A stretch of DNA of 64,000 bases from Lutibacter profundi. Lineage in GTDB: Bacteria > Bacteroidota > Bacteroidia > Flavobacteriales > Flavobacteriaceae. The translations under genes and the position numbers were made by a program. Each line of letters begins with the position of its first letter. Within the stretch, counting starts at the first letter, position 1. Positions 3-6,289 of the stretch are shown one piece after another. The DNA lies in NCBI RefSeq assembly GCF_001543325.1, contig NZ_CP013355.1:62001-126000 (forward strand). Reading direction: 5' to 3'. Under the pieces are notes generated by a model. That model was given only the letters and a program-made list of their open reading frames with translations. It was not told where the DNA came from and did not search any database.

Positions 3-431
3 AGTTTTAGTTATGAGCAATTGTTCCAAACAATGAGAGAGCTTAGACTGAGTTACCAAGAGGCTGAAGAAATGTTTAGAAGAATGGTGTTTAATGTATT
101 GAGTAGAAACTGTGATGATCATACAAAAAACTTTTCTTTTCGTTTAAAAAAAGAAGAAAAATGGGAATTAGCTCCTGCTTACGATATATGCCATGCTTAC
201 AAACCTGATAGCATTTGGGTAAGCCAGCACGCCTTGAGTATAAACGGAAAACGTAAAAATATAGCTTTAGATGATTTTTTAGTACTAGGAAAATCTATGA
301 ATATAAAAAATGTTAAAAAAATAGTGAAACAAGTTGGAAATATTGTAGGGCAATGGGGAAAATTTGCAAATCAAGTAGGTGTTGAAGAAAAGAAGAAAAA
401 GGCAATAGAAGAAACCTTATTAAAATTATAG
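3..431 (+). CDS. HipA-like Ser/Thr kinase, C-terminal part (5' end outside window)
   Basis: C-terminal part of a HipA-family protein kinase, the toxin half of HipAB-type toxin-antitoxin modules; in characterised members it phosphorylates aminoacyl-tRNA synthetases. The reading frame is open to the first base of the window, so the TTG at 21 is not the real start and the N-terminal half lies upstream. Visible motifs are NCDDHTKNFSF, holding the catalytic Asp and the following Asn of the HipA loop, and PAYDI, holding the Mg-binding Asp. These match the family pattern in order and spacing. The C-terminus is lysine-rich. No antitoxin gene follows downstream, so any HipB partner must be upstream, outside the window. 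Kinase-family assignment is good; activity and targets are inference. Confidence 0.8.
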   Translation, partial: SFSYEQLFQTMRELRLSYQEAEEMFRRMVFNVLSRNCDDHTKNFSFRLKKEEKWELAPAYDICHAYKPDSIWVSQHALSINGKRKNIALDDFLVLGKSMNIKNVKKIVKQVGNIVGQWGKFANQVGVEEKKKKAIEETLLKL

Positions 432-631: not shown

Positions 632-1108
632 TTAACCTATTTTTTTAGGGTTTTTCATGTTTTCATCCATTTCCTTTTTTAAATCTACCGCTCCAATATA
701 AATAGCGAGTTTACTACGTATAAAATATAAAATAACAAATATTATGGCAGTAATAGGTACTGTGTATATAAAATCGACTTCATCTACATATTGTTCACTA
801 TCGTTAATAACAGCAATTAGTTGAAACAAATAAACAGACATGGGGATAATTAGGGCATGTACCCACCAGTGTTTATTGGTGACAAACCATATAATTAAGA
901 GGACGAGTGGTACAAATTTAGATAAGAAAAAATATACATACGTTTGAACTCTTAGATAATAACCTCCTTTAATTACACCAAATATTGTATCAAAATTTTC
1001 TATTTCTCTTGGGATACTTTGATGAATATATAATAAGTATGGAATAAATATTATAATTAAAATAATAATACTACCAATCCATAATGAAGTTTTTCTACTG
1101 CCTTTCAT
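632..1108 (-). CDS. Hypothetical membrane protein, 158 aa
   Basis: I do not recognise a family. The protein has about four hydrophobic segments, near residues 9-28, 58-77, 83-102 and 112-131, and a charged C-terminal tail ending in ENMKNPKKIG, so it is probably an inner-membrane protein with a cytoplasmic tail. It starts at an ATG at 1108, with a possible TACATTTG promoter element about 30 bases upstream. It stands alone, between the HipA fragment and the small peptide gene at 1231. Base composition is like its neighbours. Real coding is likely from length and the clean membrane pattern; function is unknown. Confidence 0.6.
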   Translation of the reverse strand: MKGSRKTSLWIGSIIILIIIFIPYLLYIHQSIPREIENFDTIFGVIKGGYYLRVQTYVYFFLSKFVPLVLLIIWFVTNKHWWVHALIIPMSVYLFQLIAVINDSEQYVDEVDFIYTVPITAIIFVILYFIRSKLAIYIGAVDLKKEMDENMKNPKKIG

Positions 1109-1134: not shown

Positions 1135-1168
1135 CAAATGTAATAAAATTAATTTTAATAAACACAAA
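1135..1168 (-). promoter_or_regulatory. Candidate promoter for the 158-aa membrane protein
   Basis: Read on the minus strand, TACATTTG (1142-1135) fits the Bacteroidota -7 element TAnnTTTG. TTTG at 1168-1165 could be the -33 element, with a long 22-base spacer. The TTTG lies in the U-run of the terminator of the upstream peptide gene. Confidence 0.4.
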
Positions 1169-1193
1169 AACCACAATAAGTAATTATTGTGGT
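1165..1193 (-). terminator. Rho-independent terminator of the 42-aa peptide gene
   Basis: A perfect stem, CCACAATAA (1171-1179) and TTATTGTGG (1184-1192), with a four-base loop, extended by one A-T pair. On the minus strand it is followed by TTTTTGTGTTT. It lies about 38 bases after the stop codon of the peptide gene. Confidence 0.7.
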
Positions 1194-1230
1194 ATTATTA
1201 TCATCGTGATTAAGATGTAAAGGTTAGAAA

Positions 1231-1359
1231 TTACCCTTGTCTAGGTAAAATAATATCAGATTTTAAAATAGCTTGATCACTAGAAGTGTAGCTTAAAACT
1301 GCAACTGCAACAAAAGCAGATACCATAAGCAATCCGAAAATTAATTTTAATTTTTTCAT
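1231..1359 (-). CDS. Small exported or membrane peptide, 42 aa
   Basis: A short gene starting ATG-AAA-AAA, encoding 42 residues: a lysine-rich start (MKKLKL), a hydrophobic stretch about residues 6-23, then a polar tail ending ILPRQG. It looks like a signal peptide or single membrane anchor with a tail of about 18 residues; there is no lipobox cysteine. The case for a real gene is its setting. A full promoter (TTTG-N20-TATATTTG) lies 34-65 bases upstream, and a perfect hairpin terminator follows the stop. It is therefore a self-contained unit of about 220 bases. I do not recognise a family. It could be a small membrane regulator, a secreted peptide, or a leader processed by signal peptidase. 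Confidence 0.65.
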   Translation of the reverse strand: MKKLKLIFGLLMVSAFVAVAVLSYTSSDQAILKSDIILPRQG

Positions 1360-1392
1360 TTTTTGTAAGAATTAAATGATTAGTAAGAACAT

Positions 1393-1424
1393 CAAATATA
1401 TACTTAATCTTACAATTAGGCAAA
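1393..1424 (-). promoter_or_regulatory. Promoter of the 42-aa peptide gene
   Basis: On the minus strand, TTTG (1424-1421), 20 bases, then TATATTTG (1400-1393): an exact match to the Bacteroidota housekeeping promoter. It predicts a start near 1386 and a leader of about 27 bases. The TTTG is the end of the T8 run of the upstream hairpin. Confidence 0.7.
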
Positions 1425-1467
1425 AAAAATCCTCGTTATTTTTAAAATATTTTAAAAATAAGGGGTT
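1421..1467 (-). terminator. Hairpin with T8 run ending the candidate RNA
   Basis: The palindrome TTATTTTTAAAAT and its complement (1436-1461) forms a 13-bp A/T stem. Outer C (1465-1462 read on minus) and G bases (1435-1431) partly pair, and eight T follow on the minus strand. It is strong in shape, but the stem is weak in GC. Confidence 0.5.
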
Positions 1468-1676
1468 CGAAAAGCTATTTTTCTCTTATTTTACGGGGTT
1501 GCACCTTTTGAAAATAAGAAATGAAATACTTTTAATTTTAGTATATAAAATCTCTATTTTGGAGATATTAAAAGCAAAATTTGATTTTTTGTTAACTAAA
1601 AACGGGTATTTTTAGCGTAAAAATCAACAAACCGCAAACCCTCTCCGTAAAAATTTGCAATTATAGGGACGCTCTT
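1421..1676 (-). ncRNA. Candidate small RNA or leader, about 255 nt, unknown class
   Basis: The prediction rests on signals, not on a recognised family. A promoter (TTTG-N21-TATATTTG, 1715-1683) points leftward with a start near 1676. A 26-base perfect palindrome (1436-1461) flanked by C and G bases and followed on the minus strand by T8 (1429-1422) looks like a terminator. Between them no frame of useful length exists on the minus strand. Foldable parts include a stem of CTAAAAA and TTTTTAG around the loop TACCCG (1596-1615), and GCAAA paired with TTTGC across a G-rich segment near 1635-1660. It could be a free small RNA or an attenuated leader of the 42-aa gene. Confidence 0.35.
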
Positions 1677-1682
1677 ACAGTG

Positions 1683-1715
1683 CAAATATACAAATAAATA
1701 TTTATGTAATGCAAA
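1683..1715 (-). promoter_or_regulatory. Promoter of the candidate RNA
   Basis: On the minus strand, TTTG (1715-1712), a 21-base spacer, then TATATTTG (1690-1683). Both boxes match the Bacteroidota consensus. No protein start lies close downstream, which is why a non-coding transcript is proposed. Confidence 0.55.
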
Positions 1716-1913: not shown

Positions 1914-4628
1914 TTAAATTTTTTCAAAATCAACCGCTACAACTTTGTATTCAGGAGTTAAAGTTTCTTTGTCGCCAACATTCCCAGTAATTAAATTGAT
2001 AAAAATTTCAGGCTGGTGAAATGTTGTACGTACAATACCCGGTTTTACGGTATAATTTAATTTAACAGGAATGTTTACGCTTCCACGATCAGAAAAAATA
2101 CGAACGGCATCACCTTCTGAAATATCTTTTTTACCTGCATCTAGCGGATTGATTTCTAAATAATCGTTTGAAGATATTAATTGATTTTCCGTTCTACGTG
2201 TCATAGTACCAGAATTGTAATGTTCAAGCTGGCGAGCTGTAGTTAGAATGAAAGGAAACTTTTTACGGTGTTCCACTAATTCTGGAGTTTCTTCAAAATC
2301 AAAATGATGAAAAGTTCCTTTTCCTTTTTTAAAATTCCCGTTAATATGTAGCATTTTGGTATCGGTACCATCATCTTTTACAGGCCATTGCAATCCGTTT
2401 TTACCTAAACCTTCCCAAGTTACACCTTTCATAAACGGAATTACATCCGCTATTTCTTCAACTATTTTAGCTGCATCATATAGTTGCCCAGTAGGTTGTT
2501 TGTACCCTAATCTATGCATCATATCAATCATAATTTGCCCATCAGATTTACAATTTCCAATGGAGTCAATTACTTTATTAACACGTTGCACTCTACGCTC
2601 ACCATTGGTAAATGTTCCGTTTTTCTCAAAATAGGAAGCAGCAGGTAAAACTATATCAGCCATTTCAGCAGTTGCACTCATAAATAATTCTTGAACTATC
2701 AATAGGTCTAGTTTTTCAAATGCTTTGCGTATATGATTAGAATTTGGATCGGTCATTAACGTATCTTCTCCCATAATCCAAAGTGCTTTAAATTTCCCTT
2801 GAAGTGTAGCATCTATCATTTCAGGAATTTTTAAACCTTCGTGTTCAGGCATTTTATCTACGCCGTATTTTTTAGCATAATATTGTTGGACTTCAAAATT
2901 GTTAACATCCATATATCCAGCACCTTGATGTGGTTGTACACCCATATCAGCAGCACCTTGTACGTTGTTTTGTCCACGTAGCGGATTTAATCCAGCACCA
3001 TTTTTGCCAATATTACCGGTCATCATAGCTATATTTGAAAGTAACATTACCGTTTTACTACCTTGGTAATGCTCGGTAACTCCTAAACCGTGGAATTCCA
3101 TGGCTCTTTCAGCAGACGCATACGCAATAGCAGCTTTTTTTACCAATTCTTTAGAAACGCCTGTAAGCTCCTCTAATTCACTCATATCTAAATCGGCAAC
3201 ATGTGCCTCAAAATCTTTGTAAAACTCAGTATATTGATTTATAAACGATTGATTCACCAATTTTTCTTTAATAATATAATGTGCCATCATATTTAAAATA
3301 GCCACATTTGTTCCGGGGCGTAATTGCAAATGATAGGTAGCCAGTTTTGCTAACTTTGTTTTTACAGGATCAACAACAATACTTGTAACTCCTTTCATAA
3401 AAAGTTGCTTAATTTTTGCTCCAGTAACAGGATGCGCTTCTGTTGGATTTGCACCAAATAAGAAAATGGCATCGGTTTGATTTAAATCTTCAATAGAATT
3501 TGTTGCTGCACCAGTTCCAAAGGCTTGTTGCATTCCGTAAGCGGTAGGAGCGTGGCATACACGTGCACAACCATCAATATTATTGGTTCCAATGGCAACA
3601 CGAATCATTTTTTGCATTAAATAATTTTCCTCGTTGGTAGCTCTTGAAGATGAAATTCCACCAACAGCATCAGCTCCGTATTCATTTTTTATGCTTATTA
3701 ATTTTTTTGTAATAAAATCATAGGCTTCATTCCAAGAAACTTCTTCAAACTTTCCATTTTTTTTAATCAAAGGCTCTTTTAACCTATCGGGATGGTTGTA
3801 AAATTGAAAAGCAAAGCGTCCTTTTAAACAAGTATGACCTTCATTAACTTCGGCAGTTTCAGGTGCTTGAATTCCTTTAATTTCACCATTAATTACGGAT
3901 ACATCTAACTGGCAGCCAACACCACAATACGTACAGGTTGTTCTTACAGTTTTATCAGCAATTAGTGTTTTTGTTTCAAATTTATCGGTTAAAGCATCAG
4001 TTGGACACGTTTGCACACAAGCACCGCAAGAAACACAGGCCGATAAATTAAACGAAGTATCAAAACCTTTAATAATGTTAGTTGCAAATCCTCGTCCAGA
4101 CATTCCTAAAATCATTTCACCTTGAATTTCTTCACAAGCACGAACACATCTAAAACAATTGATACATTGGGATAAATCAGATTTTATATAAGGATGTGAT
4201 GTATCGGGTTCAATATCTAAATGATTTTCTCCTTTTGGGTAGCGAATAGTTGGAATTCCTATTTGAGTAATGGTTTCTTGAAAAGGTGTTGCTTTTTTAC
4301 CTTTTGCAGGGAATATTTTATCAGCAGGATAATCTGTTAAAACCAATTCAACAATATTTTTGCGAAGACGTTTAATTTTTTCAGTATTGTGATAAATGTA
4401 TAATCTTTCAGCAATTGGCGTATGGCATGATGCCATTGTTTTTGTAATTCCGTCTTTTTCACGAGCTACTTCTACTGAACAAACCCTACAAGAACCAAAA
4501 TTTTCCAATCTATCATCTTGGCACATAGTTGGAATGGCGTTGTTATTTTTTTCAATTCTTCTAACAAATTCTAAAATGGTTTCACCTTGTAAAAAATCGT
4601 ATGCTGTATTGTTGATATATGCTTTCAT
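1914..4628 (-). CDS. Formate dehydrogenase alpha subunit (Mo-bisMGD, Cys type)
   Basis: Catalytic subunit of a soluble NAD-linked formate dehydrogenase, oxidising formate to CO2. Domains in order: a [2Fe-2S] ferredoxin (Cys 36, 47, 50, 68); two [4Fe-4S] motifs of ferredoxin type (Cys 155, 158, 161, 165 and 198, 201, 204, 208); the [4Fe-4S] site of molybdopterin oxidoreductases (Cys 232, 235, 239, 267); and the bis-MGD domain. The metal ligand is Cys358 in RVCHAPT, with the adjacent His359; many homologues have selenocysteine here. The late GTMTRR motif carries an active-site Arg. The 904 residues are about normal. Its ATG is 8 bases after the stop of the beta subunit, so the two form an operon. 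No FdhD or FdsG gene is adjacent. Confidence 0.9.
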   Translation of the reverse strand: MKAYINNTAYDFLQGETILEFVRRIEKNNNAIPTMCQDDRLENFGSCRVCSVEVAREKDGITKTMASCHTPIAERLYIYHNTEKIKRLRKNIVELVLTDYPADKIFPAKGKKATPFQETITQIGIPTIRYPKGENHLDIEPDTSHPYIKSDLSQCINCFRCVRACEEIQGEMILGMSGRGFATNIIKGFDTSFNLSACVSCGACVQTCPTDALTDKFETKTLIADKTVRTTCTYCGVGCQLDVSVINGEIKGIQAPETAEVNEGHTCLKGRFAFQFYNHPDRLKEPLIKKNGKFEEVSWNEAYDFITKKLISIKNEYGADAVGGISSSRATNEENYLMQKMIRVAIGTNNIDGCARVCHAPTAYGMQQAFGTGAATNSIEDLNQTDAIFLFGANPTEAHPVTGAKIKQLFMKGVTSIVVDPVKTKLAKLATYHLQLRPGTNVAILNMMAHYIIKEKLVNQSFINQYTEFYKDFEAHVADLDMSELEELTGVSKELVKKAAIAYASAERAMEFHGLGVTEHYQGSKTVMLLSNIAMMTGNIGKNGAGLNPLRGQNNVQGAADMGVQPHQGAGYMDVNNFEVQQYYAKKYGVDKMPEHEGLKIPEMIDATLQGKFKALWIMGEDTLMTDPNSNHIRKAFEKLDLLIVQELFMSATAEMADIVLPAASYFEKNGTFTNGERRVQRVNKVIDSIGNCKSDGQIMIDMMHRLGYKQPTGQLYDAAKIVEEIADVIPFMKGVTWEGLGKNGLQWPVKDDGTDTKMLHINGNFKKGKGTFHHFDFEETPELVEHRKKFPFILTTARQLEHYNSGTMTRRTENQLISSNDYLEINPLDAGKKDISEGDAVRIFSDRGSVNIPVKLNYTVKPGIVRTTFHQPEIFINLITGNVGDKETLTPEYKVVAVDFEKI

Positions 4629-4636
4629 AATTGATT

Positions 4637-6289
4637 TTAGTTTGAAGTAAAGAATTGTTTCAATTCATCATTAAAATACTGTAATGCATTTTTTATTGGA
4701 AGCGGAACTCCCCCACCTAATGCGCATAGCGATCCAATTTCTAAAGTCTCTAACAAGTCGTTAAACAGTTGTTTATCAATCTTGTAATTTGCTGTTTGTG
4801 CTTTTTGAAGCAATTCCATTCCTCTATGAGCGCCAATTCTACAGGGATAACATTTTCCGCAAGATTCATCAGCGGTAAATTCTAATAGATGTTCTAAGAA
4901 TTGAATCATTGAAAAATCTTTTGGGATAGAAACAACACTTGCGTGTCCTAATAAAAAGCCGTTTTGATTTAATGATTCAAAATCCAACGTTAAATCGGCA
5001 ATTTTGTGCATTGGAACAATTCCTCCCAAAGGGCCACCAATTTGTAATGCTTTTATTTCAGATTTAAAACCGTTTCCAAAATCATTAAAAACAGTTTGTA
5101 AAGCTGTTCCCATTTCAATTTCATAAATACCGGGATTGTTAAAAAAACTATCTAAGGAAACTAATTTTGTTCCGGTAGATTGTTTAGTTCCCAAATTAGC
5201 ATAAGCATTTCCTCCATTTTCTAAAATCCAGTGGATATTGGCAAAAGTTTCAACATTACTCAATACCGTTGGTTTGCCAAATAAACCATATTGTGCTGGG
5301 TACGGTGGACGGACACGAACTTCAGGACGCAAACCTTCAATTGAATTTAAAAGCGCTGTTTCTTCACCACAAACATATGAACCTTGTCCGCGTATTATTT
5401 TAAACCTAAAATCACCAATTAAGTTTTTTTCTTTCAATTCATGAATAGCATCTGAAATAATTTTTATTGAATTTGGATATTCTCCTCGAATGTATAAAAC
5501 ACCAGTATTTGCACCAACGGTTAAACCAGATATATACATTCCAAACAATACTTTATGAGGTTGATGTTCCATTAAATACATATCAGAATATGCACCGGGA
5601 TCACCTTCATCGGCATTGCAAACAATGTATTTTTGGGTGTCATCCTCAGCGAAGTTGGAGGGTTCTTTAAATACGGCATCTAACTTAAACCAAAATGGAA
5701 ATCCGGCACCACCTCGTCCGCGTAAATTGGAAGTTTTAATTTCCTGAATTACTTGCTGAGGCTTCTTTTTAAAAGTTTCAGCAAGGGCATAAAATGTTTC
5801 TATATTTTCAATTTTTGAAGTTAAAATAGGTGTTGTGTTACAACCTATGTTGTAATAGTTCTCGACTGCGCTCGAACTGATATTTTTCAAAATAATTTGT
5901 TTTAATTCTTTGTTTGAATGTGCAGAGTATGTTTTGTCATCAAACATAAATGCATTATTTGAATGACAGTGACCAATACAAGCAGCATGACCAATTTCAT
6001 CTTTTGAAAAATAATTTTCTATATTTTTATGAAGGTTGTTTTGAGTATTGGCAACCATACAGGCAGTTCCGCTACAAATATGTATTTTTTTGTTTCGATT
6101 ACTTTCTCTGGTAAAATCGTAAAAAGAAGACGTTCCAATAAGTACAGAATCATCAATAAGAAATTTTTTTGCCAATTCTTGAAAATCTTCTTTAGCAGCA
6201 TTTTTGTGAGATAAACGTGCTATATTTTCAAATAAGTTATCATCTAATTCTTTTCTTGATGATAAGGTACGTATATTTTTATTTGCCAT
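4637..6289 (-). CDS. Formate dehydrogenase beta subunit, NuoE-NuoF fusion type
   Basis: Diaphorase subunit passing electrons from the alpha subunit to NAD. The N-terminal part is a thioredoxin-like [2Fe-2S] domain (Cys 72, 77, 104, 108). The rest is NuoF-like: FMN loop GRGGAGFP at 191-198, NADH-site segment CNADEGDPGAYSD from 224, IRGQGSYVCGEE from 299, and a [4Fe-4S] site ESCGKCYPC (Cys 477, 480, 483) with Cys522. First gene of a two-gene operon with the alpha subunit. Residues 138-146 in the interdomain linker (SSSAVENYY) are encoded by a GC-rich element (5859-5877) that recurs outside genes at 33399-33417, which suggests an insertion tolerated in frame. Without the alpha subunit next to it, it could be read as complex I NuoF. 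Confidence 0.88.
   Translation of the reverse strand: MANKNIRTLSSRKELDDNLFENIARLSHKNAAKEDFQELAKKFLIDDSVLIGTSSFYDFTRESNRNKKIHICSGTACMVANTQNNLHKNIENYFSKDEIGHAACIGHCHSNNAFMFDDKTYSAHSNKELKQIILKNISSSAVENYYNIGCNTTPILTSKIENIETFYALAETFKKKPQQVIQEIKTSNLRGRGGAGFPFWFKLDAVFKEPSNFAEDDTQKYIVCNADEGDPGAYSDMYLMEHQPHKVLFGMYISGLTVGANTGVLYIRGEYPNSIKIISDAIHELKEKNLIGDFRFKIIRGQGSYVCGEETALLNSIEGLRPEVRVRPPYPAQYGLFGKPTVLSNVETFANIHWILENGGNAYANLGTKQSTGTKLVSLDSFFNNPGIYEIEMGTALQTVFNDFGNGFKSEIKALQIGGPLGGIVPMHKIADLTLDFESLNQNGFLLGHASVVSIPKDFSMIQFLEHLLEFTADESCGKCYPCRIGAHRGMELLQKAQTANYKIDKQLFNDLLETLEIGSLCALGGGVPLPIKNALQYFNDELKQFFTSN
5859..5877. repeat. Short GC-rich element inside the formate dehydrogenase beta gene
   Basis: TTCTCGACTGCGCTCGAAC occurs here within coding sequence. 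It recurs with one change (A to G) at 33399-33417, where it forms the right arm of an inverted pair. It encodes linker residues about 138-144 of the beta subunit. Confidence 0.6.

Follow-up and report, generated by a model that had tools for sequence, protein, structure and literature searches.

In the tisB/istR system, which is a type I toxin–antitoxin system with short complementarity, a small RNA gene is located beside the gene of a small hydrophobic peptide. In Gram-positive bacteria, short lipoprotein-derived peptide signals are made as very short exported precursors. Structured RNAs with transcription units of their own are also found in flavobacteria, such as 6S-Flavo RNA (RF01685) and the independent small RNAs of Flavobacterium psychrophilum. 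Among the latter, Rfp18 is described as a stand-alone, structured RNA that is conserved in Flavobacteriaceae and linked to protease expression, and the passages of PMC9723704 used here report no fixed peptide-gene neighbour for it. In the same passages, TAnnTTTG is given as the main promoter box in Flavobacteriaceae, placed at −12 to −5 by 5'-end mapping in F. psychrophilum.

The locus analysed here lies on the minus strand of a 64,000-nt stretch of Lutibacter DNA (Flavobacteriaceae), referred to as the window, to which unprefixed coordinates refer. It consists of three successive units on that one strand, namely a structured RNA, a gene for a 42-residue peptide and a gene for a membrane protein; each has a promoter, and terminators are visible for the first two (Table 1). 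The RNA resembles Rfp18 in being stand-alone, structured and conserved, and differs from it in its peptide-gene neighbour; this comparison was made by description and not by sequence. As in tisB/istR, a small RNA gene adjoins a small hydrophobic peptide gene, but here long complementarity is absent, the peptide family includes lipoproteins and a partner membrane gene is present. The peptide shares with the Gram-positive lipoprotein-derived signals a very short precursor, a conserved and sometimes repeated C-terminal motif and, in some genomes, tandem copies with variable ends, but it belongs to another phylum, and no sequence relation, receptor or processing enzyme was identified.

The explanation that we favour, though tentatively, is that a stand-alone RNA regulates the adjacent peptide and that the peptide acts with a membrane-protein partner. 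The first unit would be a structured RNA that measures about 257 nt and runs from a promoter to a terminator of its own, the second a peptide predicted to be exported or membrane-anchored, and the third the putative family-wide partner of this peptide. The RNA would control its neighbour post-transcriptionally, most likely via its invariant 5' end, and the peptide, whether a signal, a ligand or a factor of the envelope, would work with the membrane protein beyond the inner membrane.

Table 1. Features of the locus, with positions in the window and the elements that define them.
Feature	Position	Strand	Elements and evidence
RNA promoter	1683..1715	-	−33 box TTTG 1715-1712; −7 box TATATTTG 1690-1683
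Structured non-coding RNA, ~257 nt (transcription predicted)	1422..1678	-	Conservation, covariation, own promoter and terminator
RNA 5' end RUAAGAGCGUCCCU	1665..1678	-	Near-invariant in alignments; diverged in L032-L035
Hairpin P1	1632..1660	-	Invariant loop UUACGGAGA; 97.1% of cells paired; 4 pairs changed on both sides
Hairpin P2, outer and inner helices	1581..1627	-	Loop mostly ACCC; 5 pairs changed on both sides over two helices
Domain P3	1528..1574	-	Invariant UCUCC 1565-1561, complement of P1-loop GGAGA 1646-1642
RNA intrinsic terminator	1422..1461	-	26-nt palindrome 1461-1436; T8 1429-1422
Peptide-gene promoter	1393..1424	-	TTTG 1424-1421; TATATTTG 1400-1393
Peptide 5' leader	1360..1388	-	Contains CUUAC twice; hardly varies within Lutibacter
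42-residue peptide gene	1231..1359	-	MKKLKLIFGLLMVSAFVAVAVLSYTSSDQAILKSDIILPRQG; all 32 aligned Lutibacter loci keep the frame; other genera matched by profile
Peptide codons 8-11, UUC GGA UUG CUU	1327..1338	-	Constrained at the nucleotide level; the RNA 5' end may pair here
Peptide-gene intrinsic terminator	1166..1192	-	Hairpin 1192-1171; T5 1170-1166
158-residue membrane protein, putative partner of the peptide	632..1108	-	Own promoter TACATTTG 1142-1135

Promoters and terminators of the three units

The TAnnTTTG box was exact before the RNA in 32 of 32 orthologous Lutibacter loci, at 4–7 nt from the conserved 5' end UAAGAGC, and before the peptide gene in 29 of 32, where the distance to the ATG was almost constant. 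Recurrence at such near-fixed spacing is beyond chance. When the box is placed at −12 to −5, as mapped in the passages of PMC9723704, the predicted starts are 1678 for the RNA and about 1388 for the peptide message, two bases away from the starts given in the initial annotation of this DNA (1676 and 1386). The two promoters, two hairpin terminators and 42-residue frame listed there were all found again in their places. The stem of the RNA terminator is conserved, and 7 alignment rows have C-G in it in exchange for U-A; a similar hairpin stands in the same place behind the peptide gene in the 17 loci inspected. The promoter of the membrane gene was present in 14 of 17 loci.

A conserved structured RNA with a terminator directly before a gene is the usual layout of a long 5' leader, and an attenuated leader had been one of the readings first offered for this locus. 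As a riboswitch or attenuator, the RNA would terminate at 1422 and continue into the peptide gene only when read-through was permitted by a ligand or protein. However, the conserved promoter of the peptide gene is located just past the RNA terminator, peptide units are duplicated without the RNA, and a non-exhaustive look at the alignment fold showed no alternative antiterminator helix. This makes the leader reading improbable, and the preferred reading treats the RNA as a unit of its own.

The structured RNA and its distribution

A 651-nt DNA query matched 37 of the 38 Lutibacter genomes, a few of them weakly. The covariance model R1, which was built from 24 orthologues and spans the 5' 154 nt of the RNA (1524-1677), found a single copy in 33 of these genomes. 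In one of the five genomes without a match the contig starts at the peptide, in another the contig holds just the end of the membrane gene, and in the other three the membrane gene is absent too. The folding energy of the single window RNA corresponds to z = −2.9. In the alignment, 93.2% of cells are standard pairs, compared with at most 62% when the partners were slid to other registers, and 11 pairs show changes on both sides, compared with 5.1 in shuffles; the covariation score was reached by none of 500 shuffles. Conserved helices of the RNA thus carry compensatory base changes. Judged by the conservation of its sequence and structure the RNA is real, and its transcription is predicted. 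Both parts of the arrangement first proposed for this DNA, an RNA unit and a unit for a membrane or secreted peptide, are conserved and recur genus-wide. The refuting outcome named with that proposal, an RNA or peptide that related genomes do not conserve, did not arise.

Within the alignment, P1 is the best-supported helix, and P2 is shortened or missing in L027, L030 and L033-L035. The GGAGA of the P1 loop and the UCUCC of P3, which sits about 80 nt downstream of it, were present in 24 of 24 rows of alignment A4 and in all 29 rows of alignment A3. These elements could possibly form a pseudoknot; they never vary in Lutibacter, and therefore covariation in this genus cannot prove it. In the second genus described below (g113), GGAGA and UCUCC tend to be kept or lost as a pair: L076 and L131 have both, and in several other loci both are lost or changed.

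A search of 397 Flavobacteriaceae genomes with R1, under strict filters and with few g113 genomes included, gave matches in Lutibacter only. The second genus was represented by nine peptide-bearing g113 genomes, in which R1 matched directly upstream of the peptide gene at L132 (60.9 bits, E 1.1e-8) and L131 (50.4 bits, E 6.8e-7). CGUCCCU was found near the predicted transcript start in all 8 of the g113 sequences that were readable there, and an exact TAnnTTTG box stood ahead of it in 7 of these 8; ACGGAGAG was kept in two g113 sequences. The gap 5' of the peptide is about 355 nt in g113 and 130–195 nt in most other genera, where it is too short for the RNA. On these comparisons the RNA predates the genus Lutibacter and, among the genera examined, is confined to the lineage of Lutibacter and g113.

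In Rfam 15, neither the window at gathering thresholds nor a permissive search of 1150-1900 gave a family above cut-off for the RNA, in agreement with the initial annotation, which had recognised no known family. The best sub-threshold match was NsiR4 (23.5 bits against a cut-off of 40), located inside the peptide gene and outside the RNA. The same annotation had suggested the flavobacterial 6S class, and 6S-Flavo is like the present RNA a structured flavobacterial RNA with its own transcription unit. However, the 6S-Flavo copy of this genome lies at a separate locus (G000:C1:293589-293695, 102 bits), and RF01685 had no match in the window at gathering threshold or among the permissive matches of 1150-1900, which excludes this identity. 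A description of the RNA/peptide unit was not found in the literature, and the viral contigs searched held no copy of the P1 motif. By these comparisons it is a previously uncatalogued structured RNA with a conserved shape, which adds a family absent from Rfam in a phylum with few role-assigned RNAs.

The peptide and its putative membrane-protein partner

The Lutibacter peptide is 42–45 residues long, with a single hydrophobic stretch and a polar C-terminus with an IPRQG-like ending. Its 5' leader is unique in the genome, as a whole-genome pattern search found no further copies of the leader motif. The relatives in other genera have a common C-terminal pattern and, in many cases, a lipobox cysteine. 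On the strength of these matches, the 42-residue peptide is the Lutibacter form of a previously undescribed Flavobacteriaceae peptide that is often a lipoprotein. Its genes are amplified in tandem in some genomes without extra copies of the RNA. At L032, a single RNA is followed by five peptide genes that are nearly identical, have a promoter each and repeat with a period of 176 bp (L032:2478-3310), and G019 has two peptide/membrane units. L032 has diverged in the 5' end of its RNA as well as in the peptide leader.

Relatives of the membrane protein were found in 243 of 349 sampled Flavobacteriaceae genomes, belonging to 172 of 237 genera. K, W, WW, P and Q positions are invariant between the window protein (632-1108) and loci L089-L115. 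Searches of Pfam, NCBIfam, PHROGs, PADLOC and PDB gave it no convincing match, and a fold search with a model of moderate confidence (pLDDT 75) gave no significant relative. The first gene past it, at the window edge (21-431, plus strand), is an apparent HipA-like C-terminal part, as identified by eye.

In nearly all non-Lutibacter loci inspected, a short peptide gene lies immediately 5' of the membrane gene and often overlaps it, and in Lutibacter the two genes form separate units with a promoter each. The common composition is a short predicted-exported peptide with an IxKxxIxxPxNG-like C-terminus beside a conserved membrane protein. The gene order suggests that the membrane protein is the partner of the peptide. 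As judged from this distribution, the two form an old gene pair that is widespread in Flavobacteriaceae, occurring in most sampled genera and named by no library searched. As a module, the pair may serve signalling or the envelope.

Three tandem peptide/membrane pairs are located in L109 (534-2779) between tsaE-like and alanine-dehydrogenase-like genes, and the N-termini of their peptides are near-constant and the C-termini variable. The peptides of L108 (1026-1310) and L110 (reverse strand 1180-1365) carry two or three repeats of an IDKxxIxxPxNG-like motif at the C-terminus and in this resemble multi-copy precursors. A role in cell-to-cell signalling can be tested directly, given the C-terminal motif, its repeats in some genera and the variable ends of the tandem pairs. 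The overlapping gene pairs and the L109 arrangement, with its constant and variable termini, would also fit a bacteriocin-like peptide with an immunity membrane protein, for which the RNA would serve as a regulator. The lipoprotein signal in many genera, the occurrence in most genera of the family and the lack of a match to defence and phage models speak against it, and we regard such a function as quite improbable.

The proposed link between the RNA and the peptide gene

The gene on the other side of the RNA varies and may be a formate dehydrogenase, methyltransferase or FdhD-like gene, and the peptide stays adjacent in both genera. That the RNA adjoins the peptide despite its variable other neighbour argues for a functional link, which we infer from gene order together with the constraint described below. 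A different reading is that the RNA acts in trans or binds a protein, has other targets and lies beside the peptide merely by conserved synteny. It would be consistent with the RNA's own promoter and terminator, with the lack of convincing extended complementarity to the peptide message and with the peptide genes of other genera, which do without the RNA. On the other hand, both genera keep the RNA immediately 5' of the peptide while the preceding gene differs, and no well-assembled genome was seen that has the RNA and lacks the peptide. We therefore consider a role restricted to other targets rather unlikely, though it deserves to be taken seriously.

For regulation of the adjacent peptide, the most specific candidate site is at codons 8-11. 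The Phe8 codon is TTC in 32 of 32 Lutibacter loci, compared with a ratio of TTT to TTC of 121 to 11 in neighbouring genes (132 cases), and TTCGGATTGCT of the peptide codons is kept in the second genus. The synonymous constraint at these codons (TTC GGA TTG CT) is strong and common to two or three genera; it could also have a role other than RNA pairing. The 5' end of the RNA, GAGC-GUCC, can pair with the message of the peptide at GGAU-U-GCU, in codons 9-11. Among registers with 2.5–3.5 G-C pairs this one is the best conserved (0.895), and L035 shows a matching double change, from GUCC/GGAU to UUCC/GGAA. The register had been noticed in the sequences before it was tested, and row shuffling gave 53 of 2000. 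The pairing comprises about 8 bp with a bulge and reaches −9 kcal/mol in the window genome, a value equalled by 5.7% of the sites in the 64-kb window; in three divergent species the pairing is either disrupted (L032) or poor (L033 and L034). Duplex energies of the whole RNA with the peptide mRNA showed no consistent difference from shuffled mRNA, and matches to the 14-nt 5' end elsewhere in the genome, sought as other targets, were no more numerous than those of the control. Direct pairing of the RNA 5' end with the peptide codons is thus a doubtful proposition, and regulation of the peptide by whatever route has a better, if still tentative, claim.

Two further pairings were dropped. UAAGA of the RNA 5' end could pair with CUUAC of the leader, and g113 keeps CUUAC and mostly not UAAGA. 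Pairing of UCUCCAAAAU with codons 7-9 is conserved in Lutibacter and not in the second genus.

A type I toxin–antitoxin system, in which the RNA would restrain a hydrophobic toxin peptide, had also been raised in the initial annotation, and it would match the single hydrophobic stretch of the short peptide, the adjacent small RNA and the tandem duplication of the peptide gene. However, the RNA lies on the same strand as the peptide gene and antisense overlap is absent. The longest perfect complement to the peptide mRNA is 8–10 nt, at a place that is not conserved in five loci, and about 18 nt or more would be expected of such a system. Moreover, many of the orthologous peptides are lipoproteins whose polar C-terminus is conserved and whose gene has a membrane gene as partner, most genera lack the RNA and have no room for it, and in one case a single RNA precedes five peptide copies. 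A toxin–antitoxin function therefore seems very improbable.

The three-unit explanation thus stands as the one preferred, and under it the RNA would be a natural handle on the regulation of the peptide/membrane-protein pair. In its most detailed form, the locus would be a signalling module with an exported precursor carrying a short C-terminal active motif, a dedicated membrane partner and, in Lutibacter and the second genus, a dedicated structured RNA that sets peptide dosage by pairing with the coding sequence; taken as a whole, this form is unlikely.

The formate dehydrogenase genes of the window (1914-6289, minus strand) lie between a methyltransferase gene and the RNA. They are missing from this site in about a third of Lutibacter loci and hence look inserted or lost as a block; for the same reason, the possibility that the RNA is part of a formate dehydrogenase locus was rejected. 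In the interval between the dehydrogenase gene and the RNA, an inverted repeat, TGCCTGCC...GGCAGG (1836-1862), stands without a T run and may be a dispersed repeat element.
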